Assembly (NCBI RefSeq): GCF_000695095.2
Contig: NZ_CP011454.1
Location: 372,001 to 436,000, forward strand
Source: Gemmatimonas phototrophica
Lineage (GTDB): Bacteria > Gemmatimonadota > Gemmatimonadetes > Gemmatimonadales > Gemmatimonadaceae
Reading direction: 5' to 3'
Length of the DNA stretch: 64,000 bases
In this document: positions 22,688 to 47,948 of the stretch, piece after piece
Numbering within the stretch: the stretch's first letter is position 1
How the letters are laid out: each line of letters starts with the position of its first letter
Notes under the pieces: model-generated
What the model was told of the DNA's origin: nothing
What the model saw: only the letters and a program-made list of their open reading frames with translations
Database searches by the model: none
Made by a program: the position numbers and the translations under genes

Positions 22688-22835
22688 GGAGAAAGCGAGG
22701 TGCGGCGTGATGCAAGGGGTGGCGCGGACACGGCGGTCCTGACGAGCTTCAGACGATCCAGATGCAGGGCGGGGCACGGCGCGAGGTGCGGACCGGATGT
22801 CCCTTGGTGGTAGTATCGACCCACATTCTCCCGAG

Positions 22836-23399
22836 ATGAGTCTTTCGACGCTCGACGGTTCGCTGCACCGCGGTTGCGGGGGGCGTTATGCGCTCCAGAC
22901 CGAGACGGTGACCATGCGTCTCAGTGGTATGGCGGCGGAGGTAACGCGCGAGTTTTACCGGTGCGAGAAGTGCGGACATGAAAATCGCACCATCGAGCAG
23001 CGGGACGCGGCCGAAAAGGCGGCGACGGAGCTGATCCGCGCCGAGCATAACCTGTTGATTCCCAAGGCGATAAAGCAGCTGCGGGAGTCGCTGGGGTTGA
23101 CGCTGGCCCAGTTCGCGGAGCTGATCTACGGGACCCCGAAGGGGATCGTGGACGGTTGGGAGAAGGGGAAGTATTTGCAGAACCGGGAGGCTGACGCGCT
23201 GATCCGGGGGCTGGCGGACCGCGAGACCTTGGAGAAGCGGGCGGCCAAGGCGGGGGTGACGTTGCCGGTGGTGGAGGGGGCGGTGGGCGCGGCTCCCGTT
23301 CCGGCGGCGGTGGCGGCTGAGGCGGTCGCGGCCGAGCTCGCGGCGGTTGAGGGTGGCGCGGCGGAGCCGGTAGCGGAGGCAGCTCCGGCGGCCCAGTAG
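22836..23399 (+). CDS. MqsA/YgiT-like zinc-finger HTH protein
   Basis: 187 residues from ATG 22836. A zinc ribbon is suggested by CGGRYAL near residue 10 and FYRCEKCGHENRT about 45 residues later. The HTH follows: LIPKAIKQLRESLGLTLAQF, AELIYGTPKGIVDGWEKGKY, as in MqsA-type antitoxins and YgiT-like regulators. The last 60 residues are an Ala/Val/Glu/Pro-rich tail. No toxin gene lies next to it, so a solitary regulator is more likely than a toxin-antitoxin pair. It is the last gene before the cassette array. Confidence 0.8.
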   Translation: MSLSTLDGSLHRGCGGRYALQTETVTMRLSGMAAEVTREFYRCEKCGHENRTIEQRDAAEKAATELIRAEHNLLIPKAIKQLRESLGLTLAQFAELIYGTPKGIVDGWEKGKYLQNREADALIRGLADRETLEKRAAKAGVTLPVVEGAVGAAPVPAAVAAEAVAAELAAVEGGAAEPVAEAAPAAQ

Positions 23400-23559
23400 G
23401 GCTGCCGGGACTCTCGGCGCGAAATCCGTTTATGCTGCAGGCGCCGCAAGATAACGGCGGCGCTCAGGTGTCCGTGGGACGCGGTAAATGATGTTCTTGC
23501 AGTCAGTTACTGCGGTGCGAGCGGCGCACGTGATTTCTGTTATGCTGCAGAGAAACGCT

Positions 23560-23609
23560 GCATAACGTCCGCCTTGCAAGAGTTTCCTGCAGGCTAATAG
23601 GCGTTAGGT
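23560..23609 (+). other. attC-like site a (50 bp)
   Basis: R'' GCATAAC (23560-23566, one mismatch to RYYYAAC) and R' GTTAGGT (23603-23609). The interior GCCTTGCAAG pairs with CCTGCAGGC. It lies just before the first cassette gene and may be the array boundary. Confidence 0.6.
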
Positions 23610-23646
23610 TGCGGCAATCGGCTCTCACTCACCGGACGGTTGATTG

Positions 23647-24003
23647 GTGCGCTCGCGAAACTCAGAGCAGGATGACTATCTCCTCCGCATGATCCAGCAG
23701 CTAGGGCGAGCCCTTGCCCGGATACGCGAAATGCTCCTAGGCGGCACCTCGACCGGCGCCGCCGTCCGCGCCGAGATTGCGGCGACCGCGGCAACGCTGT
23801 TCGGGCGAGACAGCGCGATGCTTGAGCGGCTCGATGCTGAGAGCGCGGTGCGGCTGATCGCGAGTCCCGAGCGTGTTGCGTTGTGGGTGCAATTGTTGGA
23901 CGCGGAGGCGGAGTCTTGGGACCGCGAGGGTGGGTCAGCGCGCGCCAGCGCTTGTCGCGCGCGCGCGACGGCGCTTCGCCAAGCGTCGGAAAACGTGAAG
24001 TGA
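23647..24003 (+). CDS. Cassette gene: small helical protein, DUF6483-like
   Basis: 118 residues from GTG 23647 (a TTG precedes it). The N-terminus DDYLLRMIQQLGRALARIRE resembles the opening of DUF6483 proteins, which are short helical proteins of unknown function. The remainder is Ala/Arg-rich and helical, ending in ARASACRARATALRQASENV. No signal peptide or membrane segment. It begins 38 bases after attC a and ends 24 bases before attC b, the normal spacing of a single-gene cassette. Family assignment is tentative. Confidence 0.6.
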   Translation: MRSRNSEQDDYLLRMIQQLGRALARIREMLLGGTSTGAAVRAEIAATAATLFGRDSAMLERLDAESAVRLIASPERVALWVQLLDAEAESWDREGGSARASACRARATALRQASENVK

Positions 24004-24026
24004 ACAGCGGACATTCGCGCGGCCCC

Positions 24027-24123
24027 ACCTAACCACGGTTGGTGACTGACGGTCACGGTAGGGAAGCGGCGGCTGCGCCGCCGCATCCTATTCGAGTGCC
24101 CGCAGCACAACCCAGCGTTAGGC
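24027..24123 (+). other. attC-like site b (97 bp)
   Basis: Canonical R'' ACCTAAC (24027-24033) and R' GTTAGGC (24117-24123). Outer arms pair well: CCTAAC..GGTTGGTGACTG against the reverse complement of CAGCACAACC..GTTAGG. This is one of the best-preserved sites. Confidence 0.88.
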
Positions 24124-24159
24124 AATCGCACCCACCTTCGGGCGAAGCCAAATGGTGAT

Positions 24160-24588
24160 ATGACATTCAACTCGCACTCGATCGATGGGACGCTACGGCG
24201 TACATGGATGTTCGCGCTCACGTCTTTGTTGTTGGGGTGTTACTCCTCTGCCACACCAATTGCCGACCGAGAATTTCGCCGAGCCCTCGCCGACGCGATT
24301 CAGGTTGTCGCAAATGTGTCAGCTCGTGACTCGGCAGTTGCCATAGCATTGCTTAGCCCACCTGCCGACTCAGCGACTTCCCGTGCTTCAGCAGGGGTTC
24401 GTGTTACGGGCATCAGCCGCGCCCAAGGAAAGGCAGTAGTTCGTGTGCTTCGGTGGGGCAAACTGGACCCTCCGGACCCGCCGATTTGTGCGTGGGCCGA
24501 GGATCAGGAGTACCAGTTCAGTCTCAGAAATCGTAGATGGTACTTCGATTCCGAACGGGTGCTCGTGTATGACGATGCGGCGTGCTAG
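24160..24588 (+). CDS. Cassette gene: putative lipoprotein of unknown function
   Basis: 142 residues from ATG 24160; ATG 24208 would begin directly at the signal peptide. MFALTSLLLGCYSSA has a lipobox (LLGC), so a lipid-anchored envelope protein is likely. The mature region has VRVTGISRAQGKAVVRVLRW and ends with YQFSLRNRRWYFDSERVLVY, reminiscent of NTF2/SnoaL-like C-terminal strands. No family is assigned. Composition is lower in GC than chromosomal neighbours. The TAG stop falls inside the R'' box of the next site. Confidence 0.65.
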   Translation: MTFNSHSIDGTLRRTWMFALTSLLLGCYSSATPIADREFRRALADAIQVVANVSARDSAVAIALLSPPADSATSRASAGVRVTGISRAQGKAVVRVLRWGKLDPPDPPICAWAEDQEYQFSLRNRRWYFDSERVLVYDDAAC

Positions 24589-24742
24589 CATGCCAGCTAC
24601 GCGTCGCGACCGGTCGTCGCCTCACGTTGCATTGCTGTTGTAGCGCACTTCGGAGCGCGGCTGGCGGGCGCCGTGCTGGCGCACGTCGCCCGTCCGACCG
24701 CATTCTGCTTGATGCGCTGCAGCAGAACGCTGGGCGCTAGGC
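24583..24742 (+). other. attC-like site c with compensated core changes (160 bp)
   Basis: R'' TGCTAGC (24583-24589) and R' GCTAGGC (24736-24742) each differ from consensus at the same paired position (AAC to AGC, GTT to GCT). Adjacent bases ATGCCAGC and GCTGGGC still pair. The altered GTT cleavage triplet probably impairs recombination. Confidence 0.6.
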
Positions 24743-24758
24743 AGAATCAGGAGAGTAC

Positions 24759-25364
24759 ATGAATGATTTGCCGGCTGTGGTTGCATGGCTCATCGCCGGG
24801 GCGCTGGGGCTTGTCCTCGCGCCAATTTTGTGGCTCCTGCGAGCTCGCGGCGTACCGGTGGTACGTCACTGGCTTCTGCTGGGAGTCGGATGGCTTGTAT
24901 CAGCCGCCGTCGTCGGCCCATTTATATTCGCCGTCGGTGCCGTCTTGTTGCCTGTAGCGCTAAACACGCTCCCGCCAAGCGAAACATTCAGCAGTTTACT
25001 CCTGGCGGTAGTGTATACAGGAGTAATGGCCTCAATCATGGCCGTGCTCTTCTTCGCGTTGCCCTACCTGCCAGTGCTGCTCCTCTGGGTGCGACTTGGT
25101 CACCGACTCGGGTGGCTCGAGTTTACGCAGCGCGGTGTGGTGGTCAGTTCGCTCTTGTTGGCGATGCCTGGGGCGCTCACAGGGATGGTGGCGTATGGCG
25201 TGATGGATGAGCCGTTCGGATACAAGGGCTGGGCGCTAGTCAGATTCGGAGGAGTGATTCATGCCGCCATCGCGCTCAGCCTCCTTGTGCCGCGGCTAGT
25301 ATTCCCACCGCTTCGCGCAGGTCGCTTCGCCCCGCACGCAAATTCAACGGCGTCGTCTGCCTAA
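24759..25364 (+). CDS. Cassette gene: polytopic membrane protein of unknown function
   Basis: 201 residues from ATG 24759. Five or six hydrophobic segments are visible (VVAWLIAGALGLVLAPILWL, WLLLGVGWLVSAAVVGPFIF, VVYTGVMASIMAVLFFALPY, VVVSSLLLAMPGALTGMVAY, and VIHAAIALSLLVPRLVF). Short charged loops and no catalytic motif are seen. The gene begins 16 bases after attC c with AGGAGAG-like SD upstream and its TAA stop lies inside the R'' box of attC d, a hallmark of tightly packed cassettes. Confidence 0.75.
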   Translation: MNDLPAVVAWLIAGALGLVLAPILWLLRARGVPVVRHWLLLGVGWLVSAAVVGPFIFAVGAVLLPVALNTLPPSETFSSLLLAVVYTGVMASIMAVLFFALPYLPVLLLWVRLGHRLGWLEFTQRGVVVSSLLLAMPGALTGMVAYGVMDEPFGYKGWALVRFGGVIHAAIALSLLVPRLVFPPLRAGRFAPHANSTASSA

Positions 25365-25473
25365 CGGACCGTTGCAGCTGACGGCGGCGTGTTCGGAGTG
25401 AGTCCTTGCTCGCGGCGCTCGCTGGCCGTAACGTATGGAAACGCCGCCGCAGCTGAACGCTGGGGCGTTAGGT
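25359..25473 (+). other. attC-like site d (115 bp), well preserved
   Basis: Canonical R'' GCCTAAC (25359-25365) and R' GTTAGGT (25467-25473). The interior arm GCAGCTGACGGCGGCGT pairs almost perfectly with ACGCCGCCGCAGCTGAACGC, giving a long hairpin on the single strand. The best attC candidate in the array. Confidence 0.92.
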
Positions 25474-25503
25474 CGCACCTACAGGCTCGATCATTCCCCG
25501 CCG

Positions 25504-25941
25504 ATGAGAATCTTGAAAGTCGTTCCCATTGTGCGGCGTCAGCACGGCGATCGGACCGAAGTGTTGGTCGTTGAGCATCCGCAGGCGGGCACGCAGCTCG
25601 TGAAAGGCACCGTCGAGGCGGGTGAGTCCGTGGCTGCTGCGGCGGTGCGTGAATTGGCGGAGGAGTCTGGTCTCGTCCAGGCGATGTACCGTCGGGATCT
25701 CGGCACGTGGGAGCAAGGGCCGCCGGATCAGGTCTGGCTTTTTTGCGAGATGTCGGTCGCGCGAGGGTTGCCGGACACGTGGACCCAAGTCACCGCCGAT
25801 GACGGCGGCCACCGCTTCGCGTTCTGGTGGCATCCGCTCGCCGAGGCGCCAACCCCGAGTTGCCATCCCCTCTTTGTCGACGCGCTGGCGTTCCTGCGCA
25901 CGCGCTGCCCTCCTGCCGGTCCCACCTCGACGCCCGCATGA
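25504..25941 (+). CDS. Cassette gene: NUDIX hydrolase
   Basis: 145 residues from ATG 25504. The Nudix box is present (GTVEAGES then RELAEESGL, about residues 37-59), with Mg-binding glutamates in the REL-EESG part. Nudix enzymes hydrolyse nucleoside diphosphate-linked compounds such as oxidised nucleotides or dinucleotides; the substrate is not evident. The TGA stop overlaps the ATG of the acetyltransferase gene (ATGA), so both sit in one cassette and are probably translationally coupled. Confidence 0.88.
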   Translation: MRILKVVPIVRRQHGDRTEVLVVEHPQAGTQLVKGTVEAGESVAAAAVRELAEESGLVQAMYRRDLGTWEQGPPDQVWLFCEMSVARGLPDTWTQVTADDGGHRFAFWWHPLAEAPTPSCHPLFVDALAFLRTRCPPAGPTSTPA

Positions 25942-26507
25942 ACCAGCCTTCACTGTACACACCGCGCTTGATCCTGCGCCCCTATCAGCCCGCGGATGCG
26001 TCCGAGGTGCAGCGGCTCGCGGGCGCCGCCGCGGTCGCGGAGACGACGCTCAACATTCCGCATCCCTACGCGGACGGCATGGCCGAGGCGTGGATCGCGA
26101 CGCATCGCGCGGCGTGGGAGGCCGGGACGGCGGTCACGTTCGCCATCACCACCGTCGACGATGCCCTGCGTGGTACGGTGAGCCTCCAACTGACGCGGTC
26201 GCACGGACGCGGGGAACTTGGCTATTGGATTGGGCAGCCCTACTGGGGCAGGGGGCTGGCGACCGAGGCGGTCACGGCGCTCCTACGGTTCGCGTTCGAG
26301 GACCTCCACCTCAATCGCTTGCAGGCCTCGTACTTGCCCCGCAATCCGGCGTCGGGGCGTGTCCTCGCGAAGGTCGGCATGCTGCGCGAAGGCCTGCATC
26401 GTGAGCGCTTTCGGAAAGGCGACACGTTCGAGGACGTGGTGGAGTGTGCCATCTTGCAGCGCGAGTGGCGCGCCGGCCGGGATCTCACGCGCGACGGTGC
26501 GACCTAA
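25938..26507 (+). CDS. Cassette gene: GNAT family N-acetyltransferase (RimJ/RimL-like)
   Basis: 189 residues from ATG 25938. LYTPRLILRPYQPADASEVQ opens a RimJ-type GNAT; the acetyl-CoA-binding A motif appears as LGYWIGQPYWGRGLATEAVT and the NxxS-type B motif as NPASGRVLAKVGMLREG. Such enzymes acetylate ribosomal protein N-termini, antibiotics or small amines. Both this gene and the Nudix gene lie between attC d and attC e, making a two-gene cassette. Its TAA stop is in the R'' box of attC e. Confidence 0.9.
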   Translation: MNQPSLYTPRLILRPYQPADASEVQRLAGAAAVAETTLNIPHPYADGMAEAWIATHRAAWEAGTAVTFAITTVDDALRGTVSLQLTRSHGRGELGYWIGQPYWGRGLATEAVTALLRFAFEDLHLNRLQASYLPRNPASGRVLAKVGMLREGLHRERFRKGDTFEDVVECAILQREWRAGRDLTRDGAT

Positions 26508-26641
26508 CCATGCGTCGCTGCAGTCAAACGCTGCGAAACTCGGTGTAGCGACCGCGGGGCGCTCGCTGTAGCCTCAGGTGACGGAGCGAACGCCCCGCTT
26601 GCTGCGGTGTGGGCGTTTGCCGCAAAACGCAATCGTTAGAC
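26502..26641 (+). other. attC-like site e (140 bp)
   Basis: Canonical R'' ACCTAAC (26502-26508) and R' GTTAGAC (26635-26641). Flanking arms pair: CATGCGT..CAAACGC on the left with GCGTTTGCCGC..ACGCAAT on the right. The middle holds a GC-rich hairpin (ACCGCGGGGCGCTCG with CGAACGCCCCGC). Confidence 0.88.
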
Positions 26642-26668
26642 CAACTACCTTCCTCTGTCTCTCGTGCC

Positions 26669-27169
26669 ATGTCACCTGATGAGCACTGTCCGGAGTGCGG
26701 CGCGCCCGTCGTGGGCCAACGGCTGGGGTGCCAGCAGCGGTTCGACGAGTGCCTCGCGCGCGAGTTCGATGACGACCGGTACGCGCGCGCGCAGCGCCTC
26801 ATGGTCGATGCATACTCGCTCCAGCACCCGTCGGACTACATGCGTTCTGCGAAGTCGTTCGCGGCGCATCTCACGGGCATCTATGCGGCGCTGGAGCGCC
26901 GCGACGCGCCGGAAGTGAATCACGCGGTGCAGGCGTGGCTCAATGGGCCGAAGACCATGCCGCGTCCAGACCATCCGAGTGCACTACGCCGTGGTACACT
27001 TACGATCCTCCACGTCCACGAAGCTGGCGAGTCGGAAGAGCACGTTGTGCGCGTCCGCGAGTGGGCGCAGTCCGTGTGGGAGGCATGGCGGAGCTATGAG
27101 CAGATCGCAACGAAATGGATTGACGCCGCGATCGCGACCGTGCCCTCGCGCGCTACTCGTCCTCAGTGA
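26669..27169 (+). CDS. Cassette gene: DUF5946 family protein
   Basis: 166 residues from ATG 26669. CPECGAPVVGQRLGCQQRFD near the start and VDAYSLQHPSDYMRSAKSF follow the pattern of the DUF5946 family, which has an N-terminal CxxC-x(n)-C zinc-ribbon-like head and a helical body of unknown role. DHPSALRRGTLTILHVHEAG and EWAQSVWEAWRSYEQIATKW are also family-like. The start is 27 bases after attC e. Confidence 0.8.
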   Translation: MSPDEHCPECGAPVVGQRLGCQQRFDECLAREFDDDRYARAQRLMVDAYSLQHPSDYMRSAKSFAAHLTGIYAALERRDAPEVNHAVQAWLNGPKTMPRPDHPSALRRGTLTILHVHEAGESEEHVVRVREWAQSVWEAWRSYEQIATKWIDAAIATVPSRATRPQ

Positions 27170-27197
27170 CGACCGGCGAAGATTTCTGCCGGAGTTG

Positions 27198-27217
27198 GTC
27201 TAACGCGAGCATTAGGC
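27198..27217 (+). other. Collapsed attC-like remnant f (20 bp)
   Basis: GTCTAAC and ATTAGGC are separated by only six bases (GCGAGC). Outer boxes persist but the palindromic interior is gone, so the site looks like a deletion derivative and is probably non-functional. Confidence 0.5.
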
Positions 27218-27264
27218 GGCGGCCGCGATGCACTCACATCTCACGATCAACGCAGGAATGGCCC

Positions 27265-27657
27265 ATGAAAGGTTGGAGGCAAGTAGCGGCTGCGGCTTCG
27301 ATCGGGATCTTTGCGGGCGCAGTCAGCGTCAAACTCGCCATGGCTGCGACCGCAAAGCCGCCAGCCTATTTGGTTGTGGAATACGAGATTACGGATCGTG
27401 ACGCGTTCCAGGCATACATCAAGGGCGTAGAGTCGCTCCCGACAACCCGTGTGTTCTTGGCTCGCCACGCCAAGGGTGTACCCCTGACCGGTGAGCCGCC
27501 CAAGTGGATCGGAATCTTGAAATACCCGAGCCTTGAAGAGGCCTTAGCATTCGAGAACTCGACGCAGTACAAGGCTCTGGTCAGTGCCCGCGACAAGGGC
27601 ACGAAATGGCGTGCGTACGTGGTCGAAGGGCTGCCGGAACAAGCGGCACAGCAATGA
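27265..27657 (+). CDS. Cassette gene: exported DUF1330 family protein
   Basis: 130 residues from ATG 27265. A signal peptide (VAAAASIGIFAGAVSVKLAM) precedes a DUF1330 domain: YLVVEYEITDRDAFQAYIKG, then RVFLARHAKGVPLTGEPPKW and YPSLEEALAFENSTQYKAL. DUF1330 has a dimeric alpha/beta-barrel ferredoxin-like fold of unknown activity; an exported version is less common than the cytoplasmic form. The base composition is lower in GC than flanking chromosomal genes. Confidence 0.85.
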   Translation: MKGWRQVAAAASIGIFAGAVSVKLAMAATAKPPAYLVVEYEITDRDAFQAYIKGVESLPTTRVFLARHAKGVPLTGEPPKWIGILKYPSLEEALAFENSTQYKALVSARDKGTKWRAYVVEGLPEQAAQQ

Positions 27658-27668
27658 CTATCCGGATG

Positions 27669-27751
27669 GTCTCACGCTGATGAAGTCACCTCCGCCTCAC
27701 AAGCGTTTGCTGCGGTCGGGGCCTAACGCCTCGGCCCACGCGCCGTGAGAC
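27669..27751 (+). other. attC-like site g with compensated core changes (83 bp)
   Basis: GTCTCAC (27669-27675) and GTGAGAC (27745-27751) are exact reverse complements and differ from GTCTAAC/GTTAGAC at one paired position. A GCCTAAC box also occurs inside (27721-27727), so the exact limits are uncertain. Confidence 0.45.
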
Positions 27752-28191
27752 CGTCGCCACGCTTGGTATGCGGCGGCTCGCTTACACTCGGCGGCTGGTC
27801 AGTGGTCCACGCGGCGCACGCCGCTGCAGCCACTGCGGTGGTCAGTACGTTTGCCGTGCCGATGGCAATGGGTGCGCTGTTCGGTGGTGTAGCATCGGGC
27901 CTTCACGCGCTTGCCTCAAGAGGTGAGGGCTCTGACGTCGATTGGGTGGAACGCATCCGAGTCGGCGTCGTCTTCATCTGCGCCTACGTCCCGCTCCTTC
28001 GGTACCTTCGAGATCATCACGCGGCCAGCACGTGGTACGCTTTCGTCGGCGGGGCGCTCATCATGTACTCCTTGGTTCTCCTGCTCCAGCTGATCAAGGG
28101 ACCCTCGCGGCCGTCAGCCGATAAGAGCGTCGGCGAAACAGACCACTCACGCCGTGCCGAACGGATCGCTGCTGCCGACGGGGCTGACTAG
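27745..28191 (+). CDS. Cassette gene: putative small membrane protein
   Basis: 148 residues if started at GTG 27745, which overlaps the R' box of site g, so the true start may be further in, for example ATG 27859 or 27865. Three hydrophobic stretches (AMGALFGGVASGLHALA, VGVVFICAYVPLLRYL and YAFVGGALIMYSLVLLLQLI) suggest an integral membrane protein, followed by a charged tail. No family is recognised. Its TAG stop touches the R''-like box of site h. Confidence 0.5.
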   Translation: MRPSPRLVCGGSLTLGGWSVVHAAHAAAATAVVSTFAVPMAMGALFGGVASGLHALASRGEGSDVDWVERIRVGVVFICAYVPLLRYLRDHHAASTWYAFVGGALIMYSLVLLLQLIKGPSRPSADKSVGETDHSRRAERIAAADGAD

Positions 28192-28263
28192 GGAGTGCGG
28201 CTGGCTCACTCCGTTCGTCTGCCGCATTGTTGAGAGACCCCGAGGCAGAACTTTGCGTTAGAC
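28186..28263 (+). other. attC-like site h (78 bp), R'' degenerate
   Basis: R' is canonical (GTTAGAC, 28257-28263), while the R'' candidate GACTAGG (28186-28192) is degenerate. An interior hairpin GTCTGCC / GGCAGAAC is present. Confidence 0.5.
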
Positions 28264-28270
28264 CAACCGA

Positions 28271-28786
28271 GTGTTCTCACTGACAACAAGGAAGCAACCA
28301 TTGAAGAACGCATTGAAGATCGCATCGACGATCACATTCCTGGCGCTCTGCCTTTCTGCTGCGACGTTGGCGGCCCAGCAGCCTGTTCCACGGCTGGTTG
28401 GGACGTGGCGCGTTATGGAGTTTTGCAACGTCGATACGCCGGGCGATACGACCTACCCACTTGGTCGACGACCGATCGGATTCTTCATCTACGATCCTGC
28501 GGGCAACCTCTCGATCCAGGCGATGCGGGCCGCACCATCCGGTGCGTTTATGCGGGACTCCATTCCGCTCGGCGGTATGGCGGAGTTGCTGTCCTGGTAC
28601 TTTGGCTATTTCGGCACCTACACGATTACGTCCGACTCCACCGTCGTGCATCGTGTCAGGGGTGGCACGATTCCGAGCTACATCGGCACCGACCAACCTC
28701 GCAATTATTGGATTCGCGGCGACACCCTTTCGATCGGTGGCGGTGAACCGTGGTCGTGTCGCAAGCTCGTTCGCGTGCGCTCATGA
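28271..28786 (+). CDS. Cassette gene: exported lipocalin-like domain protein
   Basis: 171 residues from GTG 28271, eight bases after site h. A signal peptide (ASTITFLALCLSAATLAAQQ) is followed by LVGTWRVMEFCNV, GRRPIGFFIYDPAGNLSIQA and GYFGTYTITSDSTVVHRVRG, the strand pattern of the lipocalin-like PF13924 family (GTW.. YDPxGxxSxQ). Such proteins probably bind small hydrophobic ligands in the periplasm; ligand unknown. Confidence 0.82.
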   Translation: MFSLTTRKQPLKNALKIASTITFLALCLSAATLAAQQPVPRLVGTWRVMEFCNVDTPGDTTYPLGRRPIGFFIYDPAGNLSIQAMRAAPSGAFMRDSIPLGGMAELLSWYFGYFGTYTITSDSTVVHRVRGGTIPSYIGTDQPRNYWIRGDTLSIGGGEPWSCRKLVRVRS

Positions 28787-28794
28787 TTGGTGCG

Positions 28795-28814
28795 GACTAA
28801 CACGAGCGTTCGCT
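28795..28814 (+). other. Collapsed attC-like remnant i (20 bp)
   Basis: GACTAAC and GTTCGCT flank six bases (ACGAGC), closely resembling remnant f (GCGAGC spacer). The R' core GTT is kept but the next purine is lost. Last recognisable site of the array. Confidence 0.4.
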
Positions 28815-28834
28815 ACACCACCATCGATTCCGCT

Positions 28835-29401
28835 ATGCCAGAATCCCGTCAGCTCCTGCAACACTTCCTCGCCGCCATCGCCTACCGAACACAGAAGGCG
28901 CTGCGCGACGCGCCAGTCGATTTCGCCGACTTCCGAGCCGGGACTCATGTGCGCACACCGCATGAGCTGGTCTGGCACATGACCGGCGTGATTGGCTATG
29001 CCCGCACCATGCTGCACGGGGGCGACTTCGCCCCACCGCGACTGGAATCGCTGGCGGCAGAGGTGGCGCGGTTTCACGAGACCCTCGCGGCCTTGCGCGA
29101 TGATTTTGGCGATCCGGCACTGGCGGCGCGGATCAGCGATGCACAGTTCCTGCATGGCCCCCTCGCCGATACGATGACCCACGCTGGCCAACTGGCGCTC
29201 CTCCGTCGGCTCGCGGGCGCGCCGGTTCCGTCGGAGAACTTCATCTTCGCCGAGATCATGGCCGCGAACGTCGGGGAGGAGCAGCCGGCACCGGCCGCTC
29301 CAGATGCGTGGTGGCGGCCCGATCAACCGCCGCTTCCGCCGGCGCCGGATCCGCTGCAGGCACAGCGGGCCGGCGAACGAGGACGCGAAGCCGATGGGTG
29401 A
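28835..29401 (+). CDS. DinB family protein
   Basis: 188 residues from ATG 28835. The DinB four-helix metal-binding pattern is visible: THVRTPHELVWHMTGVIGYA gives the first metal-site His, and ADTMTHAGQLALLRRLAGAP gives the later His (HAGQ). DinB-like proteins include thiol transferases (bacillithiol or mycothiol) and many stress-related unknowns; this is not DNA polymerase IV. The C-terminal 40 residues are Pro/Ala/Arg-rich and probably disordered. It follows the last attC remnant directly and may itself be former cassette cargo. Confidence 0.85.
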   Translation: MPESRQLLQHFLAAIAYRTQKALRDAPVDFADFRAGTHVRTPHELVWHMTGVIGYARTMLHGGDFAPPRLESLAAEVARFHETLAALRDDFGDPALAARISDAQFLHGPLADTMTHAGQLALLRRLAGAPVPSENFIFAEIMAANVGEEQPAPAAPDAWWRPDQPPLPPAPDPLQAQRAGERGREADG

Positions 29402-29599
29402 GCGTGGGGCGCAAGGCCACATGCGGAGACGCCGGCTACCGGAGACGTCGAATGATTACGCTTCCTGTTCGCGAGCCGTGTGATCTGTATCTGGCCATTC
29501 GTGAAGACACGTGGAAGATCATCGCCCAGTGCGAGGCGGTAATGGTCGCGACTGAAGGTCGCGATAGACAGCTACCACGCACCGTCTCATCTTTGGGTC

Positions 29600-29875
29600 A
29601 TGACCGAAAAACTCTACAAGCTGGTTGGCCCAGACGGACAGGAGGTGCTCAGTGCAGTACCGGGCACACTCGGCGGGAACCGCCGGCTGAAGATCTATGG
29701 GCACCTCGATTGCCGGAGCGCGATCGGCTCGCTCCCCACGGGATATGCGAAGCATCGGGTCTTCTTCGCAGACGAGGCGACGGCCATCGCAGCCGGCTAC
29801 CGACCCTGTGGCACCTGCATGCAGGCGGAGTACGGTGCCTGGGTTGAGGAAGCCATGCGCTCAGGGCGCCTATAG
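29600..29875 (+). CDS. Small Ada-type metal-binding domain protein
   Basis: 91 residues from ATG 29600. GNRRLKIYGHLDCRSAIGSL and HRVFFADEATAIAAGYRPCG, then TCM, match the zinc-binding part of Ada (FFADxxxAxAAGFRPCxxC). Three Cys (LDC, PCGTC) and the His of KHRVFF could form a metal site, whereas Ada uses four Cys. The protein is only this domain, without HTH or methyltransferase. Interestingly, the AraC-MGMT fusion at 3.1 kb lacks exactly this domain. The 198 bases before it (29402-29599) show no convincing gene. Confidence 0.8.
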   Translation: MTEKLYKLVGPDGQEVLSAVPGTLGGNRRLKIYGHLDCRSAIGSLPTGYAKHRVFFADEATAIAAGYRPCGTCMQAEYGAWVEEAMRSGRL

Positions 29876-30046
29876 CGTGGCATGTCCGGTGGCACACGTG
29901 CGCTGGAGAGGGCACGCGATCATTGGTGCCTCGCCGCGCTCAGCTTGTCGCTGCTCGCTTGCCGCTTACCGTTCAGCATCACCGCCTTCGCGCCCCGCGT
30001 TCGGCCAACCAGAAACCACGCTCAGCTTTCGAAGGAGATGCCCCAC

Positions 30047-30445
30047 GTGAAGATCACGATCGAAGTGACGGTCGCTGCGCCTATTGATGCTGTGTGGAAC
30101 GCCTGGATCACGCCCGATCGAATCACGCAGTGGAATGCGGCTTCAGAGGAGTGGTGCTGCCCGACCGCTGTCAACGATCTGCGCGTTGGTGGAACGTTCT
30201 CTTACCGCATGGAGGCCCGTGATGGCTCGATGGGGTTCGACTTCGAAGGCCAATACACACGGATCGTGGAACGCGAGTTGCTCGAGTACACGCTTGGTGA
30301 CGAGCGCGTCGTGCGTGTGGAGTTCGCCCCAGGGAGTGGCGGGGTGACCGTCCGGCAGACCTTCGATGCGGAGAATGAGCACGCCGCAGAGCAGCAGCGC
30401 CAAGGTTGGCAGGCGATTCTGAATCGATTCGCGAGCCATGTCTGA
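30047..30445 (+). CDS. SRPBCC / AHSA1 family protein
   Basis: 132 residues. GTG 30047 is preferred: AAGGAG at 30032-30037 is nine bases upstream, and the family typically starts MKITIEVTV; the in-frame ATG at 30038 would abut the SD. IDAVWNAWITPDRITQWNAA is the N-terminal AHSA1 helix-strand, WCCPTAVNDLRVGGTFSYRM and FDFEGQYTRIVERELLEYTL continue the START-like fold. The family binds hydrophobic ligands or stimulates Hsp90 in eukaryotes; in bacteria functions are varied. Small-cargo style like the cassettes, but no attC is seen. Confidence 0.87.
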   Translation: MKITIEVTVAAPIDAVWNAWITPDRITQWNAASEEWCCPTAVNDLRVGGTFSYRMEARDGSMGFDFEGQYTRIVERELLEYTLGDERVVRVEFAPGSGGVTVRQTFDAENEHAAEQQRQGWQAILNRFASHV

Positions 30446-30509
30446 ACAGCCGGAACGATAGATGACACGTGGTCCGGGGCCATCGTCAACGGTCCCTGGA
30501 GCACCCCCT

Positions 30510-31322
30510 TCACTCGCCTCCCAACTGCCCCTCGTAGCATGTCGGACACATACCGTGCGTCAGCGAGATGTCCTTTCGCTGTGCCATGTACTGCTCAAGC
30601 CCTACCCACTCCCCGTCGCTCTTGATCTTGCGACACCACGCGCACATGGACAGCAGCGCTTGCAGCCGGCGCAGCTCAGCGGTCGTCTCACGCACCGAGA
30701 GGTCGTGCACGTAGAGCAGGCCGAGCGCGCTCATGAGGAAGAGTGCGACATCGATGCCCACACCATAGGACATCGGACGCGAACCGTTCACACTGATTCC
30801 CGACCTGGTCGAGAGGTACGCGACAATCGCGACGACGGCCAGCAGTGCGGCACCACCGGCTATGAACCCGGTTCGCCACGACTGAGACTCGGCAACCGTG
30901 TCATGACGCGGCACGGCAAAGGCACGCGCCGCCAGCGGCACGAGCAGGAACCAATAAAGCTGTCCCGCCTGGTTTTCACTTGGTACCAGCGCCGATGCCG
31001 CGAACAACAGACCGACCGTTGCAATAATCGTGAACGCCACCACGCGGATGGGCGCGCCCAGCCGTACGGCAAGCGCCTGCGCCAGAATGAGGGCCAAATA
31101 CCCACCCGTCAGCGCGACGCCATGCCATTGCCCCGCTCCCGCGGCCGCTGTCACCGCCAGCGCCGACACAACGGTGGCGAGAGTGATGGCGCCGGCGAGG
31201 AAGCGGAGCTGATAGGCCTCGCCACCATCGCGGGCCCCGCCTGGCCGCAACCACGCCATTGGACGTCTGAGCCATCGGGCCCCCTGCGGCATTGCGACCA
31301 GCCATGCTTCCTGACTCGGCAT
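30510..31322 (-). CDS. Polytopic membrane protein with C-terminal CxxC...CxxC zinc-like tail
   Basis: 270 residues from ATG 31322, chosen because GGAG lies six bases upstream; the frame continues beyond. Six or so membrane helices (LAGAITLATVVSALAVTAAA, LTGGYLALILAQALAVRLG, VAFTIIATVGLLFAASALV, LYWFLLVPLAARAFAV, FIAGGAALLAVVAIVAYLS, GIDVALFLMSALGLLYVHD) are followed by a short coiled linker and LLSMCAWCRKIKSDGEWVGL ... THGMCPTCYEG. That CAWC...CPTC tail is a recurring cytoplasmic module in bacterial PAS, kinase and regulator proteins, presumably metal-binding. A membrane sensor is a reasonable guess. Confidence 0.7.
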   Translation of the reverse strand: MPSQEAWLVAMPQGARWLRRPMAWLRPGGARDGGEAYQLRFLAGAITLATVVSALAVTAAAGAGQWHGVALTGGYLALILAQALAVRLGAPIRVVAFTIIATVGLLFAASALVPSENQAGQLYWFLLVPLAARAFAVPRHDTVAESQSWRTGFIAGGAALLAVVAIVAYLSTRSGISVNGSRPMSYGVGIDVALFLMSALGLLYVHDLSVRETTAELRRLQALLSMCAWCRKIKSDGEWVGLEQYMAQRKDISLTHGMCPTCYEGQLGGE

Positions 31323-31535
31323 TTCGACTCCGGGGAGGCACTGTGTAAGCGTCATGTAGGACAGGCAATTGCGGCACGTTGAGTATATGCCTCGCTCCCC
31401 TCCGTGGCGAGCACCGGCAATGAGGCATGGCGCGCGTCCCGCGCCCCGGGGCGTGTGCGGCGCGCATATTTCGTTGCCTATCCGCTTCTGGCGCCTCCGC
31501 ATTCCACGGTATCACGCACTCTCCCGAAGGACGAG

Positions 31536-32582
31536 ATGAATCCTCTGCGACACTCCGCCACTGCACTCGCGTTGCTCCTCGCGCTGGCCGGCGTGGCACG
31601 GCCCGTGTGCGCTCAGGCGACCACTCAAGGTGATGTGCTGGTCCTGACCACCGGGGGGACGATTGCCAGCCGCGCGACTGGCCCGATGACCGATGGCGCG
31701 TCGCTCGTTCGCGGTATTCCGGCGCTCGCGACGGTCGCGTCTGTTCGCGTGGACGAGGTGTTCCGCGTGCCGTCGTCACAAATGACGCCGCCGGACTGGC
31801 TCCGGCTTGTGAAGCGCATCAACGCCGAGCTCGCCTCGGCGCCGCGACTGCGTGGTGTGGTGGTGACGCACGGAACGGATACCATGGAGGAGACCGCCTT
31901 CTTCCTCAACCTCACTGTGCGCGATGCACGCCCCGTCGTGGTGGTGGGATCGATGCGCGGGGGAGATGAGGTGTCGGCCGACGGTCCGGCCAACATCCTG
32001 AATGGCGTGCGGGTGGCCGTGAGCGAATCGGCGAAGGGGCAAGGCGTGCTGGTGGTGCTCAACGAGGACATCAGCGCGGCGCGGGATGTGTGGAAGACGG
32101 ACAACCGTCGCGTGGATACGTTTCGCTCACCCGAGCGTGGCTTCCTCGGCGCCGCTGACCCGGATAGCGTGGTCTTTTTCCGACGCACCGTGCAGCCCCA
32201 CACGACCACGTCGGAGTTTGATGTCACGCGCCTTGAGACGCTCCCCGCCGTGGAGATCCTGACGGACTATGCCGGGTTCGACTCGACGGTGATGCGCGCC
32301 GCCATCGAGCGACGTCCGCGGGGCATCGTGTTCACCAGCTTTGCCGGTGGTCGTCTGAGTGGGGGCGGCCAGGCCGCGGTGCGCATGGCTGGCGCAGCCG
32401 GGATTCCAGTCGTCGTTGCGTCTCGTGTACCCGGCGGCCGCATCGTTGGTGCACCGCACAGTGGGCTGCCGCGCATCCTGGCCCGCGATCTCCCCCCGCA
32501 TAAGGCCCGCGTGTTGCTCATGCTCGCGCTGACGCGTACCACCGACCGTGCGGGGTTGCAGCAGATCTTTGATCGCTACTGA
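31536..32582 (+). CDS. Exported asparaginase (type II-like)
   Basis: 348 residues from ATG 31536, with AAGGA upstream. The signal peptide (ATALALLLALAGVARPVCAQ) exports it to the periplasm. VLVLTTGGTIASRATGP carries the first catalytic Thr and GVVVTHGTDTMEETAFFLN the second Thr-Asp-Lys-type site; VVVVGSMRGGDEVSADGPAN is the third family block. It hydrolyses asparagine to aspartate and ammonia. A second, divergent copy lies at 62.5 kb. The deacylase gene follows 70 bases downstream on the same strand, giving a nitrogen-scavenging pair. Confidence 0.93.
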   Translation: MNPLRHSATALALLLALAGVARPVCAQATTQGDVLVLTTGGTIASRATGPMTDGASLVRGIPALATVASVRVDEVFRVPSSQMTPPDWLRLVKRINAELASAPRLRGVVVTHGTDTMEETAFFLNLTVRDARPVVVVGSMRGGDEVSADGPANILNGVRVAVSESAKGQGVLVVLNEDISAARDVWKTDNRRVDTFRSPERGFLGAADPDSVVFFRRTVQPHTTTSEFDVTRLETLPAVEILTDYAGFDSTVMRAAIERRPRGIVFTSFAGGRLSGGGQAAVRMAGAAGIPVVVASRVPGGRIVGAPHSGLPRILARDLPPHKARVLLMLALTRTTDRAGLQQIFDRY

Positions 32583-32652
32583 CACGCGCCGCTGGTGTTC
32601 CTCGGGCGCGAGACGCATACTCGGCAGATCCCTTCTGCGGAGCATGTGTTTC

Positions 32653-34374
32653 ATGGTGCGTTTATCATCCGTCGTGCCACTGCTGACGGCGTCGCTGTTG
32701 TGTGGTGGCCTTCCACTCACGGCGCACGCGCAATCCGCCGCACCGGCGGCGCCACGGTTCGACGTGCTCATTCGTGGCGGTCGCGTTTTTGACGGGACGG
32801 GGAATCCGGCCGTTCCCGCCGATGTGGGCATTCGGGATGGACGGATCGTCGCCGTTGGCCGGCTACGGGGAGCCACCGCAACGCGCATCGTTGATGCGAC
32901 CGGCAAGCATGTGGCCCCCGGGTTCATTGACATTCATTCGCACGCCGATGACGGCGCGAGCATTCAGGGGGGATTCCGGGACAAGGATGCGCGGTATCGC
33001 GCCGCCCCGAATCTCGTCACGCAAGGGGTGACCACGGTGGTGGTCAACCATGATGGACGCTCGCCGTGGCCCGTGGCGGATCAGCGCGAGTTTCTGGAGC
33101 AGAACGGCATTGGTCCGAATGCCCTGCTGATGGTTGGCCACGGGACGGTGCGGGCCCGGGTCATGGGGAATGACTTCCGCCGAGCGGCGCGTCCGGACGA
33201 AGTGGTGAAGATGCAGGAGCTGGTGCGACAGGCTATGCGTGAGGGGGCCATTGGTTTGTCGGCTGGACTTGAGTACGTGCCGGGTCGGTGGAGCACGACC
33301 GACGAAGTCGTGGCGCTGGCCAAGGAGATCGTGCCGTTCGATGGCGTGTACATCGCGCACCAGCGCGCCGAGGGCGGGGACCCCATGTGGTTCTGGCCCA
33401 GTCAGGACGCGCCGGGTGCTCCCACGCTCATGGATGCCGTGCAGGAGACCATCGATGTTGGTGAGCGTACGGGTGCCCGCGTTGTGGCGTCGCACATCAA
33501 AGCCAAGGGTGAGCATTGGCGCGGGACGAGTCAGTCCATCATTCAGTTGATTGAGCGCGCGCGGGCACGCGGCGTGGATGTCTGGGCTGATCAGTACAGC
33601 TACAACACCAGCGGAACCGACGGGAATACGGTGCTGCTCCCCGCGTGGGCCATCACGCCACCCACCGACGCGCGGGCGCCGCAAGGGACACGTACAGACT
33701 ACTCGGCGGCACTGCGGGCGACGCTGGCCGACAGTGCGCGTGCCGTGATGCTCCGTCGCGATGTGACGCACGAGATCAGGCGCCGAGGGGGTCCGGAGAA
33801 CGTGATGATCTTCGAGTATCCCGACACCACCGCCATTGGGCGGACGGTGGGACAGTTGGCGGCACGACGCGGCGTGTCGCCGGTGGAGATGGCCATTCAG
33901 CTGCAGCTCGAGGGGAACCCCTCACAGCGCGGTGGCGGCCGCATGCGCGGCTTCTCCATGGACGAAGGCGATATGGACCGCTTTGCCGCGCAACCCTGGG
34001 TGGCAACGGCCAGCGACGCCGGCATTGCCCTCCCGGAAGACGGCCCCAATGTCCACGCGCGATTCTATGGCACCTTTCCGCGCAAGCTCCGCCTCTACGC
34101 CATGGAGCGCGGCGTGATATCAGTGGAGAGCGCGATTCGCAGCATGACGAGCCTGCCGGCGCAGATTGTGGGACTCAAGGATCGCGGGCAGTTGCGCGAA
34201 GGGATGGTGGCCGACGTCGTGGTGCTGGACCTCAAGACCATCAGAGACCCGGCGACGTTTTTCGCGCCGCATCAATACGCCGAAGGGATTGAACTGGTGC
34301 TCGTGAACGGCGTTGCGGTGGCGGAGCAGGGGAAGCCAACGTGGAAGCTGCCGGGCAAGGTGCTGCGGCGGTAA
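32653..34374 (+). CDS. Exported N-acyl-D-amino-acid deacylase / D-aminoacylase family amidohydrolase
   Basis: 573 residues from ATG 32653; GGAG at 32639 is at a better distance than for ATG 32644. Signal peptide VVPLLTASLLCGGLPLTAHA. Amidohydrolase fold: FDVLIRGGRVFDGTGNPAVP, APGFIDIHSHADDG (HxH metal site), VASHIKAKGE, and a C-terminal GMVADVVVLDLKTI strand pair. The LIRGG..FDGTG..P and AGLEYVPGRWSTTDEVVALA features fit D-aminoacylase-type enzymes that free D-amino acids from N-acyl derivatives; they could also be dihydroorotase-like isoaspartyl hydrolases. Follows asparaginase. Confidence 0.9.
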   Translation: MVRLSSVVPLLTASLLCGGLPLTAHAQSAAPAAPRFDVLIRGGRVFDGTGNPAVPADVGIRDGRIVAVGRLRGATATRIVDATGKHVAPGFIDIHSHADDGASIQGGFRDKDARYRAAPNLVTQGVTTVVVNHDGRSPWPVADQREFLEQNGIGPNALLMVGHGTVRARVMGNDFRRAARPDEVVKMQELVRQAMREGAIGLSAGLEYVPGRWSTTDEVVALAKEIVPFDGVYIAHQRAEGGDPMWFWPSQDAPGAPTLMDAVQETIDVGERTGARVVASHIKAKGEHWRGTSQSIIQLIERARARGVDVWADQYSYNTSGTDGNTVLLPAWAITPPTDARAPQGTRTDYSAALRATLADSARAVMLRRDVTHEIRRRGGPENVMIFEYPDTTAIGRTVGQLAARRGVSPVEMAIQLQLEGNPSQRGGGRMRGFSMDEGDMDRFAAQPWVATASDAGIALPEDGPNVHARFYGTFPRKLRLYAMERGVISVESAIRSMTSLPAQIVGLKDRGQLREGMVADVVVLDLKTIRDPATFFAPHQYAEGIELVLVNGVAVAEQGKPTWKLPGKVLRR

Positions 34375-34394
34375 CGTGTGGGGGGCGCGGTGCG

Positions 34395-35510
34395 CTACCG
34401 CGGCACTCCCAACACCCGCAACACCGCCCCCATGACCGCGTTTGTCTGACGCGATTCGCTCTGATCGGTGATTGAGACCGCGATGGTAATGCCCGCCTCC
34501 GGGAATACCATCGCCGTCGTTCCCCAGAAGCCACTGTGGCCACGCCCGGTCTGACCGCCCACCACTGCGCCGAAGAGGCCCAGGCCATACCCGTTCATCT
34601 CCGGACTGCGCGGGCGCCGCATCGTGTCGAGCGTCGCTCCGTTCGCGAACACCTGGCCATTCAGGAGCGCGGTGAGGAAGTGCGCGAGATCGGCCATGGT
34701 GGCCACAATACCGCCACCACCATACAGGTCGAACGACGGGTCAATACCGTAGGCGTCGAGGCCACCGAGATACTGGTGCGCCCGATCTGAAACGCCCGGC
34801 GGCGTTGGCTCCAGCGTTTCCCACCAGGTATGGCGCAGTCCCAGCTGATCGAAACGCACCAGCGCGCGCACGGCAGGTCCGAGCGGCTGACCGCTGTATC
34901 GCTCCACGATCAAGCCCAGCAGCACATAGCCGCTATCGGAATAACGGAACTGCGCCCCCGGCGGCCCCACCGGCGCCAGACTGTCCACCAGCCACTGCAG
35001 CTGCTCGCGTGGCGTCCAGCGATGCTGCGGATCGGTGCGCAGTGACGCCACATAGCTTGGTACTGCGGGATGTTCATTGAACCCGGCCCGATGACTCAGC
35101 ACCTGCTCAATGGTGATGACATCCGTTGCGTAGCCATCACGACGAAGCAGGGAATCCACCGCCGGTGGCAGATGCTTCGATAACGGGTCGCTGAGCGAGA
35201 GCCGTCCCGTTTCCACGAGCCGCAGCAGTGCAGCCGCGGTGTAGGTCTTGGTGTTGCTCGCCAGCCGGACGGGTTGGTCCGGTGTGAGCCGGATCTTGCG
35301 TGCGGTATCGGCGAGTCCGGCCGCGACGCTCCAGCGCTTTCCGGTGGCCTGCTGCTCCACCGCAATGATGATCCCCGGCATGCGCGGCCGAGCGGCAATG
35401 ACACTGTCGGCGAGCTGCTGCAGGCGGGACTGCACCGAGTCAGATGCCGCCCGTGCGGGCGGCTGTGCCGCCACGGCGAACAGCGACACGAGAAGAAGCA
35501 GGGGAGTCAT
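34395..35510 (-). CDS. Secreted serine hydrolase, beta-lactamase class C fold (second copy of the type)
   Basis: 371 residues from ATG 35510. Signal peptide MTPLLLLVSLFAVAAQPPAR. The SxxK motif is ASNTK (Ser 85, Lys 88), the second motif is YSD (FRYSDSGYVL, Asp replacing Asn), and the third is HSG in GRGHSGFWGT. It lacks the long C-terminal domain of the protein at 0.3 kb. Likely a periplasmic D-peptidase or esterase. It converges with the deacylase gene. Confidence 0.88.
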   Translation of the reverse strand: MTPLLLLVSLFAVAAQPPARAASDSVQSRLQQLADSVIAARPRMPGIIIAVEQQATGKRWSVAAGLADTARKIRLTPDQPVRLASNTKTYTAAALLRLVETGRLSLSDPLSKHLPPAVDSLLRRDGYATDVITIEQVLSHRAGFNEHPAVPSYVASLRTDPQHRWTPREQLQWLVDSLAPVGPPGAQFRYSDSGYVLLGLIVERYSGQPLGPAVRALVRFDQLGLRHTWWETLEPTPPGVSDRAHQYLGGLDAYGIDPSFDLYGGGGIVATMADLAHFLTALLNGQVFANGATLDTMRRPRSPEMNGYGLGLFGAVVGGQTGRGHSGFWGTTAMVFPEAGITIAVSITDQSESRQTNAVMGAVLRVLGVPR

Positions 35511-35625
35511 GGAACGCTGGATCGGGTGAGCAGTTGGACCAACCGGACAACGGGGATGCATCGCGCCGTGGCGGCGCTACTCGTCGCCCGAAGCGCCGCC
35601 CGTGGGATGCCCTGCCGTCATCAGC

Positions 35626-36315
35626 TTAGTGCGGCGTAATATGCGACCCGTCAGCTGGCGTTGTAGCCCGCACGACGGGAAGGACATCGCGCTCTGGACG
35701 TCTGTTGGCCATGATGTTGTTGAGGAAGCGCTGCCCTTCCGACAGGCGCTCCACTTCAATGGCAATGGCATCAACCGCCTGCACCAGCCGATCGTCGTTG
35801 CGCTCCGACAGCGCGTGATTGCGCCGCTGCTGTTCGGCCAACCGCTTGCCGCGCGCCACAGCAAAGCGCCAGAGCAACGCGCCCAATAGCAGAAAGCCAC
35901 CGGCTTCCATTGCCATGAGGCGGAAATACTGCACACGTTGCGCTTGCAACAGATCGCCCGGGTCGAAGGGGGGCGGTGCCATTTCAAAGAAGGCCGGTGG
36001 CGCCTCTGCGTCCCCGATGCCCATGGGCAACTTCATCGCCTCATCGATCTGCCGATCTGCGTTCTGCAACGACTGCTCGAGTGTCTTGAGCCGGGCCCCC
36101 AATCGCTCCACCGTTGCTTCGTATTCCTTCACCATGCCCACTTCGCCACGGGCCTGCGCGTTCAGGCGCTCCTGCCCCACGCGACCCCGTTCTCGCATGG
36201 TGTTCTGATACTGCTGAGAGATGAGCTCGCGCCGCTCCTGCAGCGCCTGCAGGCGGGCCGGTGAACCATCAACGGTGACGGCGATGGGAGCGGGGCTGAC
36301 TGAGGGCTGGGGCAT
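35626..36315 (-). CDS. Coiled-coil, single-pass membrane protein (paralogue of the 16.2 kb gene)
   Basis: 229 residues from ATG 36315 (a GTG at 36363 is possible). Pro-rich leader, coiled coil (LQALQERRELISQQYQNTMR to LGARLKTLEQSLQNADRQID), one membrane helix (LMAMEAGGFLLLGALLWRFA) and a tail with QAVDAIAIEVERLSEGQRFL, nearly the same as in the 16.2 kb protein. Same domain order, so both belong to one uncharacterised family; the sequence between conserved parts has diverged strongly. Confidence 0.75.
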   Translation of the reverse strand: MPQPSVSPAPIAVTVDGSPARLQALQERRELISQQYQNTMRERGRVGQERLNAQARGEVGMVKEYEATVERLGARLKTLEQSLQNADRQIDEAMKLPMGIGDAEAPPAFFEMAPPPFDPGDLLQAQRVQYFRLMAMEAGGFLLLGALLWRFAVARGKRLAEQQRRNHALSERNDDRLVQAVDAIAIEVERLSEGQRFLNNIMANRRPERDVLPVVRATTPADGSHITPH

Positions 36316-36453
36316 GGGCGGGCTCGGCGGGAGGCCAGCGGAGGCGAATACGGGCGCGGACACGCCCGAAGGGCGTACGCGAGGGCGCCGAGGCCGGTTT
36401 CAGACGGCTCGCGCACCCTTGCCGAGTCGTGGATGCTGCCGTAGTTCACGGAG

Positions 36454-36693
36454 ATGCAAATCTCATCCACTCTGAGCGCGGCGCTCGGCAGCCGCCGTGT
36501 CCGGCTTACCGCCGTATCCCTGCTGGCGTTGCTCGTGCCGTCGTTGGCCGGAACCCAATCGCGCGGATGCCCTCGCTTTGCCCGCGTCCCCGGCTACGGT
36601 GCGTGCACCAACACGGGGGGCAGCACCTGTGGATTCTGCACGTACCGCTGCAATGATGAGACCGTTGTGCGCTGGAACGTGTGCGGAGGATAA
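36454..36693 (+). CDS. Small secreted six-cysteine peptide
   Basis: 79 residues from ATG 36454. Signal peptide (LTAVSLLALLVPSLAGTQS, about 18-36), then a 43-residue mature part with Cys at 39, 51, 59, 62, 66 and 77, enough for three disulfides or metal binding; it is Gly- and Thr-rich and ends NVCGG. The next gene (large lipoprotein) starts at GTG 36681, overlapping this gene by 13 bases, so expression is probably coupled. Small Cys-rich secreted peptides paired with propeller-type lipoproteins (NVEALA-type pairs) are known in Bacteroidota; homology to those is not shown here. Confidence 0.65.
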   Translation: MQISSTLSAALGSRRVRLTAVSLLALLVPSLAGTQSRGCPRFARVPGYGACTNTGGSTCGFCTYRCNDETVVRWNVCGG

Positions 36694-37847: not shown

Positions 37848-37858
37848 GGCGCCCTGCG

Positions 37859-38398
37859 CTACTTTGGCGCCAACCGCACCACAATGACCTGCGCCCCGCC
37901 ACACGCCAACGGGTGGGCGATATGCTGCGCGCGTGGGCGCGGCAATGCCGCCGGCAATGCCACCACATCGTGCAGCACCAGGCGTGGGGTAACGGTGTAG
38001 CGTCCGGGCACACTGAAGTCGAACACGTCGCTCAGCTCCAGGTTTGCGGTCCGTCGCTGACCGGAGCCCAAGCGCACGTATTCATCGCCATCGGGATCGC
38101 CACGCTTTACGGAGGCGCCTCCGTACGGGACCGGACGTCCGTCGCGCTCCACCTCAACGAAAGGCTGAAGCCACGCCTCTTCGAACGGTGTGCCCCAGTT
38201 GAGCAACGCGCGTGCCGTTCGGCTGCGGTTATGCAGAGTGACGGCAAAAAGCACAGGCTGCCCACGCTCCACCAGCGACGGCACACTCACGGTGCACACA
38301 ATCACTGGTGGAGCAGCAGAAGGCTCAGCGGCGCCCACGTTGACGGGCATGGCAATGGCCAGCGCGACAAGGCTGTTCCGCGTGAGCCGAAGCACCAC
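37859..38398 (-). CDS. Exported protein homologous to the M35 protease N-terminal domain
   Basis: 179 residues from GTG 38398, one base from the upstream protease stop; ATG 38437 inside the protease gene is also in frame. Signal peptide SLVALAIAMPVNVGAAEP. The mature domain (FVEVERDGRPVPYGGASVKR, EYVRLGSGQRRTANLELSDV, FDFSVPGRYTVTPRLVLHD) matches, strand for strand, the protease's N-terminal domain (FVVMRNGQQVRYEGPHIKRG, EMVRIAAGATLTYDIELSRA, YDLAQDGSYSVEFQSR). It looks like a free copy of that propeptide-like domain, possibly a chaperone or inhibitor. Confidence 0.7.
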   Translation of the reverse strand: MVLRLTRNSLVALAIAMPVNVGAAEPSAAPPVIVCTVSVPSLVERGQPVLFAVTLHNRSRTARALLNWGTPFEEAWLQPFVEVERDGRPVPYGGASVKRGDPDGDEYVRLGSGQRRTANLELSDVFDFSVPGRYTVTPRLVLHDVVALPAALPRPRAQHIAHPLACGGAQVIVVRLAPK

Positions 38399-38399
38399 A

Positions 38400-39482: not shown

Positions 39483-39709
39483 AATTCGCTCCGAGGGAGG
39501 GGAGTGAGACGCGGCCGCTGCCGCCGCCTCGATACGCTATTCTACCGGCTGGTCCCACAAAAGCAACGAGAAGTCCCGTTGGTATGTAATTGGTACCGAA
39601 TCAGGCACATGCTGGTCGAACGGCTCGGTGGTCGAGATATTCGCTTCGGAACTGGTCCGGCGGCGGCAAACGCCCCGCTGCCTCACAGGCATGCCTCCAG
39701 AGGTTGGCT

Positions 39710-47945: not shown

Positions 47946-47948
47946 CGC

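Follow-up and report, generated by a model that had tools for sequence, protein, structure and literature searches.

How can an integron gene-cassette array gain or exchange cassettes at a chromosomal position that has no integrase beside it? The question is raised by a 64,000-nucleotide stretch (hereafter the window, which supplies the numbering for the array described here) of the complete 4,716,552-bp chromosome of Gemmatimonas phototrophica, our source genome (G000, C1:372001-436000). A preliminary description of the window had proposed a cassette array without a visible integrase. The observation of a cassette array is confirmed, and the interpretation placed on it is partly supported. 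The locus is probably one satellite among the several platforms of a chromosomal integron, and a distant integron integrase (IntI) may supply its cassettes in trans. The identity of the attI modules, the structure of the attC sites, the presence of a single IntI and the dispersed architecture are what sequence comparison establishes here, and from cassette turnover at orthologous loci we infer that cassettes may be inserted in trans at attI modules that have no intI.

The attI module and attC sites of the window array

The window array is headed by an attI module without intI (23404-23611, plus strand), which is detected at 90.3 bits (E = 3.9e-27) by a profile (R2) made from nine intI-adjacent attI modules of other genomes. 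The 3' half of the module is intact, as is its crossover (GTTAGGT at 23603), and the first cassette begins at the G^TT position (23603/23604). What the preliminary description took for an attC site at 23560-23609 is the 3' end of this module. The 2 kb lying 5' of the module show no similarity to intI, in agreement with the reported lack of an adjacent integrase. A candidate for an intI 3' remnant in this direction, a 28-bp match (89%) to the intI region of G180, lies inside the boundary gene and was judged to be a chance match. The module is a diverged member of type II. Over its 74-bp core (23535-23608), it shares 91.9% identity with an intI-less attI of G307 and 87.7% with the intI-adjacent attI of that genome. 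Upstream of the crossover there are inverted-repeat sites resembling cores at 23418-23462 and 23540-23570 (for example, TTATGCTGCAG-AGAAA-CGCTGCATAA), and these are probably additional IntI binding sites.

Five attC sites follow on the plus strand, as located by a covariance model trained on 20 sites from Gemmatimonadota genomes other than the source. The training alignment is 97.3% paired, and 13 of its pairs have changed on both sides, a number reached in none of 500 shuffles. With several such sites between short same-strand genes, the locus qualifies as an integron cassette array, for which attC sites with conserved ends, paired arms and extrahelical bases are diagnostic. A strict rule (RYYYAAC...GTTRRRY with paired arms) returns exactly three sites across all 64 kb, and they are the three that the preliminary description had singled out for their consensus ends and paired arms: b (24027-24123; 37.2 bits, E = 1e-6), d (25359-25473; 68.4 bits, E = 3.6e-14, the best of the array) and e (26502-26641; 31.4 bits, E = 2.5e-5). 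A relaxed scan for arm pairing yields mostly noise at 65% GC, and the covariance model was used in its place. It adds site h (28156-28263; 42.1 bits, E = 6.9e-8) and a diverged site c with the 3' end GCTAGGC (24619-24742; 22.8 bits, E = 0.003). The score of site c is close to noise, given that the top match outside the array in the window reaches 21.3 bits. The suggested comparison with other Gemmatimonadota finds that site c is 79-88% identical to attC sites in other Gemmatimonas arrays and that site e has 83-86% identity to attC sites of G073 and G307.

attI modules and integrases in the genus

A search of the whole genome for IntI and attI, as the preliminary description had advised, finds one plausible IntI in the same cell as the window array. 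It is encoded at 4315487-4316422 on the minus strand (TIGR02249, 379.9 bits against a cut-off of 265), and the remaining three tyrosine recombinases of the chromosome score below this cut-off. Its sequence has the GMR, HTFRH, GH and Y motifs and the extra segment GWWWVFPA. The gene lies about 0.8 Mb from the window array, across the origin, and next to its own attI and array. The chromosome carries five attI modules (395.4, 4315.2, 4519.7, 4664.9 and 4679.6 kb) against this one intI, so attI-headed arrays outnumber intI genes by 5 to 1. There are 18 attC matches in the entire chromosome at E <= 1, and 17 of them are clustered rather than scattered: five in the window array, four in the array adjoining the integrase (4310-4315 kb) and eight at 4659-4679 kb. 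The eighteenth, at 4518.9 kb, sits 3' of the fifth attI.

An origin-symmetric inversion that split intI from the window array (at about -400 and +396 kb) was considered as well. A simple inversion does not reunite them, and the idea is unneeded because five attI modules are present. All five arrays lie within ~401 kb of dnaA (start near base 79) and point away from it. In this direction, the bottom strand of attC lies on the leading-strand template, an arrangement that has been reported for sedentary integrons (PMC11023631). Some kilobases past the far end of the intI-bearing array, the minus strand encodes a 684-amino-acid protein with many repeats of ~29 amino acids (L011:514-2568).

Genomes of the genus repeatedly carry several attI landing sites per integrase. 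Across 30 Gemmatimonas genomes the R2 profile detects 71 attI modules (E <= 1e-8) versus 26 intI matches, fragments included (E <= 1e-35). The integrase and the cassettes share one orientation at the Gemmatimonas loci examined, with attI 3' of intI. An intI gene or fragment is present within 2 kb on the 5' side in 15 of 57 modules inspected and is missing there in 42, and a search for intI 3' remnants finds none beside most of the intI-less modules. Sites of the attC type occur downstream of 28 of the 32 intI-less modules that have at least 1 kb of downstream sequence, and every attC match near a module (114/114) is downstream of it on the same strand. Six Gemmatimonas genomes have no attI match; four of these are without intI (G218, G289, G299 and G300), and two have an IntI of another clade (G073 and G301). 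Four draft genomes (G054, G268, G305 and G308) have attI matches and no detected intI. The sister genus has 3-5 modules per genome, with same-strand attC sites after all nine intI-less modules inspected, one of which retains an 85-bp intI remnant.

Two of the attI-headed arrays of the source chromosome are in tandem on the same strand, ~14.6 kb apart (G000:C1:4664926-4665134 and 4679580-4679787), and a comparable tandem arrangement is found in the sister genus (G217:C31). Two intI genes per genome occur in G249 and G301; in G249 one integrase is of type I and the other of type II, and the attI modules match them.

Cassette turnover and competing explanations

Three intI-less loci of the source chromosome (4679k, 4665k and 4519k) have positional counterparts in sister species. 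In all 18 orthologous pairs at these loci, identity across the 5' flank (1.0-1.2 kb) is 83-96%, and the 3' side is dissimilar over 1.4 kb, or over only 742-773 bp for G054 and for G310 at 4519k. In the 15 pairs that agree in attI type, identity between the modules is 69-98% as far as roughly the crossover. Where attI alignments are present, they stop at the crossover or within a few bases of it. Ungapped position-wise identity of the upstream flanks was uninformative. The comparison of relatives that the preliminary description had called for therefore reveals cassette turnover at intI-less attI modules of three loci other than that of the window, whereas the window position itself holds relics or nothing in relatives.

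Different platforms also have cassettes in common. On one contig of G304, a 2,438-bp first cassette follows both the intI-adjacent attI and an intI-less attI (100% identity), and a 1,224-bp first cassette (98.6%) is found at one intI-less locus of G304 and at another of G310. A cassette at 4665k in G000 matches one in the intI array of G307 (688 bp, 96.2%). Likewise, window cassette 2 has a copy with 98.1% identity over 632 bp in the array that adjoins intI on its own chromosome. With one integrase per genome, this turnover and sharing make insertion in trans the simplest reading. The dispersed attI modules would be bound in trans by a single IntI, which would carry out insertion or excision of cassettes at the G^TT position of a distant attI. 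The modules may have spread by duplication of a platform and subsequent loss of intI, or by copying of attI.

Several observations weigh against this reading. Over its full length, the window attI is at most 66% identical to any other module, and the resident integrase adjoins a type I attI, unlike that of the window. The window type is the one found beside a different IntI lineage (that of G304, G307 and G296) than the one retained here, so the module may be used inefficiently by the resident IntI, judging from sequence type. The corresponding position in G067, G278 and G180 holds only a decayed attI without attC sites, and in the species closest by flanking gene (G304, G307 and G310) it is occupied by other genes and lacks attI. 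Several of the turnover comparisons involve draft or metagenome assemblies, in which repeats can be mis-joined, and some of the turnover could reflect off-target integration at attC or cassette loss in an ancestor. Given its attI type and the relics or absence in relatives, the platform of the window may be active, seldom used or orphaned.

The alternative that survives best is a fossil integron, in which a complete integron once occupied this site, lost its intI by deletion and left behind an array that no longer changes. This is a possibility to be taken seriously, if a somewhat doubtful one. It would account for the decayed, cassette-free attI at the same locus in three relatives, for the decay of the right half of the window array and for an attI type that fits another IntI lineage, and some intI-less modules do have intI 3' remnants beside them (42 bp at G067:C20 and 85 bp at G184:C26). 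However, the window attI has kept its crossover and 3' half intact, cassette 2 and its intI-array copy are nearly identical, and three other intI-less loci of the same genome differ in cassettes from their sister-species counterparts.

Mis-joining of similar attI copies in draft genomes could also give an appearance of turnover, since G310 and G307 are metagenome-assembled genomes and many contigs end near attI. An assembly artefact is nevertheless unlikely. G000 and G019 are complete single contigs, each with intI-less attI-headed arrays, and one 790-kb contig of G304 includes two copies with differing flanks. Moreover, the pattern is seen in four genomes per locus, and the architecture appears again in a second genus.

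A cluster of attC sites lacking an integron-integrase (CALIN) was the reading favored in the preliminary description. The window array does have at least two attC sites and no intI nearby, and this part of the reading stands. Unlike a CALIN, it has a complete attI at its head (23404-23611), a chromosomal position shared with relatives and an IntI elsewhere in the genome; it is more than a CALIN because this attI has an intact crossover. CALINs have been proposed to arise by off-target cassette insertion (PMC8618304), and attG sites, the non-specific genomic targets in question, are cited in PMC12901181 and PMC11023631. Such an origin is very improbable here, since the first cassette joins not a minimal genomic target but a 208-bp module homologous to intI-adjacent attI (E = 3.9e-27). 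Least probable of all is that the module is an unrelated dispersed repeat found beside integrases and arrays by chance, a view that its palindromes and several copies per genome might invite but that conflicts with its place directly 3' of intI in the training genomes, with the uniform position and strand of the 114 attC matches, with the start of cassette divergence at its 3' GTT and with its absence, four draft genomes excepted, from genomes without this IntI clade.

The satellite-platform reading may extend to how attI modules are maintained. At the 4679k locus (L024, L174, L186 and L171), the 5' flank is 90-96% identical, and the attI is of type I in G000, G310 and G307 and of type II in G304, which has a type II IntI. 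The module at this locus seems, from these sequences, to have been replaced in place. In addition, attI copies within one genome tend to cluster together. On the basis of this clustering and the type switch in G304, we tentatively suggest, with a little less than even confidence, that one IntI maintains dispersed attI platforms in the Gemmatimonadaceae and that exchange or homogenisation keeps the attI modules in step with the resident integrase. In that case attI would be a copyable module rather than a fixed appendage of intI. The usual description of an integron has one intI and one attI adjacent to it, and treats intI-less arrays as static leftovers. If one integrase does serve several dispersed attI modules, a genome has several independently placed sites for cassette insertion and expression, and tools that seek attI only in class 1 integrons undercount integron content. 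It also makes testable whether an integrase keeps up insertion sites in trans and how far attI and IntI co-evolve.

Related systems, cassettes and flanks

Complete sedentary chromosomal integrons resemble the window locus in having attI, attC sites, cassettes and the same orientation relative to replication (the rule in PMC11023631). They differ in having intI in cis, which is absent here, where several attI loci exist per IntI. In the description of IntegronFinder 2.0, one attI close to the integrase is typical, and attI sites outside class 1 are undetected (PMC9024848), which may be the reason that the present architecture escaped notice. The closest precedent found is a single phage with two arrays, the intI-less one of which begins with the attI type of the neighbouring integron; here, by contrast, several attI modules per chromosome occur in a genus and its sister genus and are accompanied by cassette turnover. 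Xanthomonas CALINs away from ilvD occupy several chromosomal loci with one intI locus per genome and are said to be mobilisable in trans, and the available part of that report mentions no attI at these arrays (PMC12444791), whereas the window array has one. The reverse-oriented integrons of Treponema share with Gemmatimonas an intI oriented as the cassettes are, but one attI is described per integron and an intI-less remnant is regarded as static (PMC3607928). An integron in a Gemmatimonadota chromosome, which had been thought worthy of remark, is not itself unusual because 102 of 298 sampled genomes of the phylum have integrases above the cut-off and the phylum is already listed as integron-bearing (PMC8618304). 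In the literature searched, which left subscription papers outside, no description of a multi-attI chromosomal system was found. The locus is under-described, as had been supposed, but the under-described feature is the multi-attI, single-IntI architecture of the genus.

The nine small same-strand genes of the preliminary description correspond to nine open reading frames (ORFs) on the plus strand (23644-28786), and their products are as unrelated in function as it had stated (NUDIX, GNAT, DUF5946, DUF1330 and lipocalin-like among them). Cassette 1 (23604-24117), between attI and attC b, carries an ORF at 23644-24003; cassette 2 (24118-24736) carries a lipoprotein-like ORF (24160-24588); and cassette 3 (24737-25467) carries a membrane-protein-like ORF (24759-25364). 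None of the three matches a Pfam family. Cassette 4 (25468-26635) has two ORFs, a NUDIX protein (25504-25941, PF00293) and a GNAT protein (25938-26507, PF13302). Cassettes 5-7 (26636-28257) encode DUF5946 (26669-27169, PF19371), DUF1330 (27265-27657, PF07045) and an ORF at 27745-28191 that, together with its attC, has a homolog as the first cassette of the intI-bearing integron G249:C72.

The right part of the array is decaying, with degenerate sites near 27200 and 27721, both within cassettes 5-7, and near 28795; those at 27200 and 28795 had been listed as sites and are remnants. A decayed tail on the plus strand (28258-29941) includes the lipocalin-like ORF (28304-28786), an unclassified ORF (28835-29401) and an Ada zinc-binding-like ORF (29600-29875). 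The array region of G073 contains a homolog of 29561-29941 whose start coincides with an attC R' site, and the window array probably continues, in decayed form, to about 29.94 kb. The gene at 28835-29401 was considered as a marker of rearrangement, since its homolog lies elsewhere in G019, and was dropped because that gene alone matches there. The array is lower in GC than its neighbours, as described, but only slightly (63.5% versus 66.1% and 65.3% in the flanks). A search of the locus against Rfam gave zero matches. To the right, the window (28835-64000) has the look of a variable region, and its searched part (28830-48829) has no block synteny with G019, G067 or G073. The gene at the left boundary, outside the array (22797-23399, plus strand), encodes a helix-turn-helix or MqsA-like protein (Pfam MqsA, 20.3 bits, under the cut-off) and is found in 28 of the 30 Gemmatimonas genomes.

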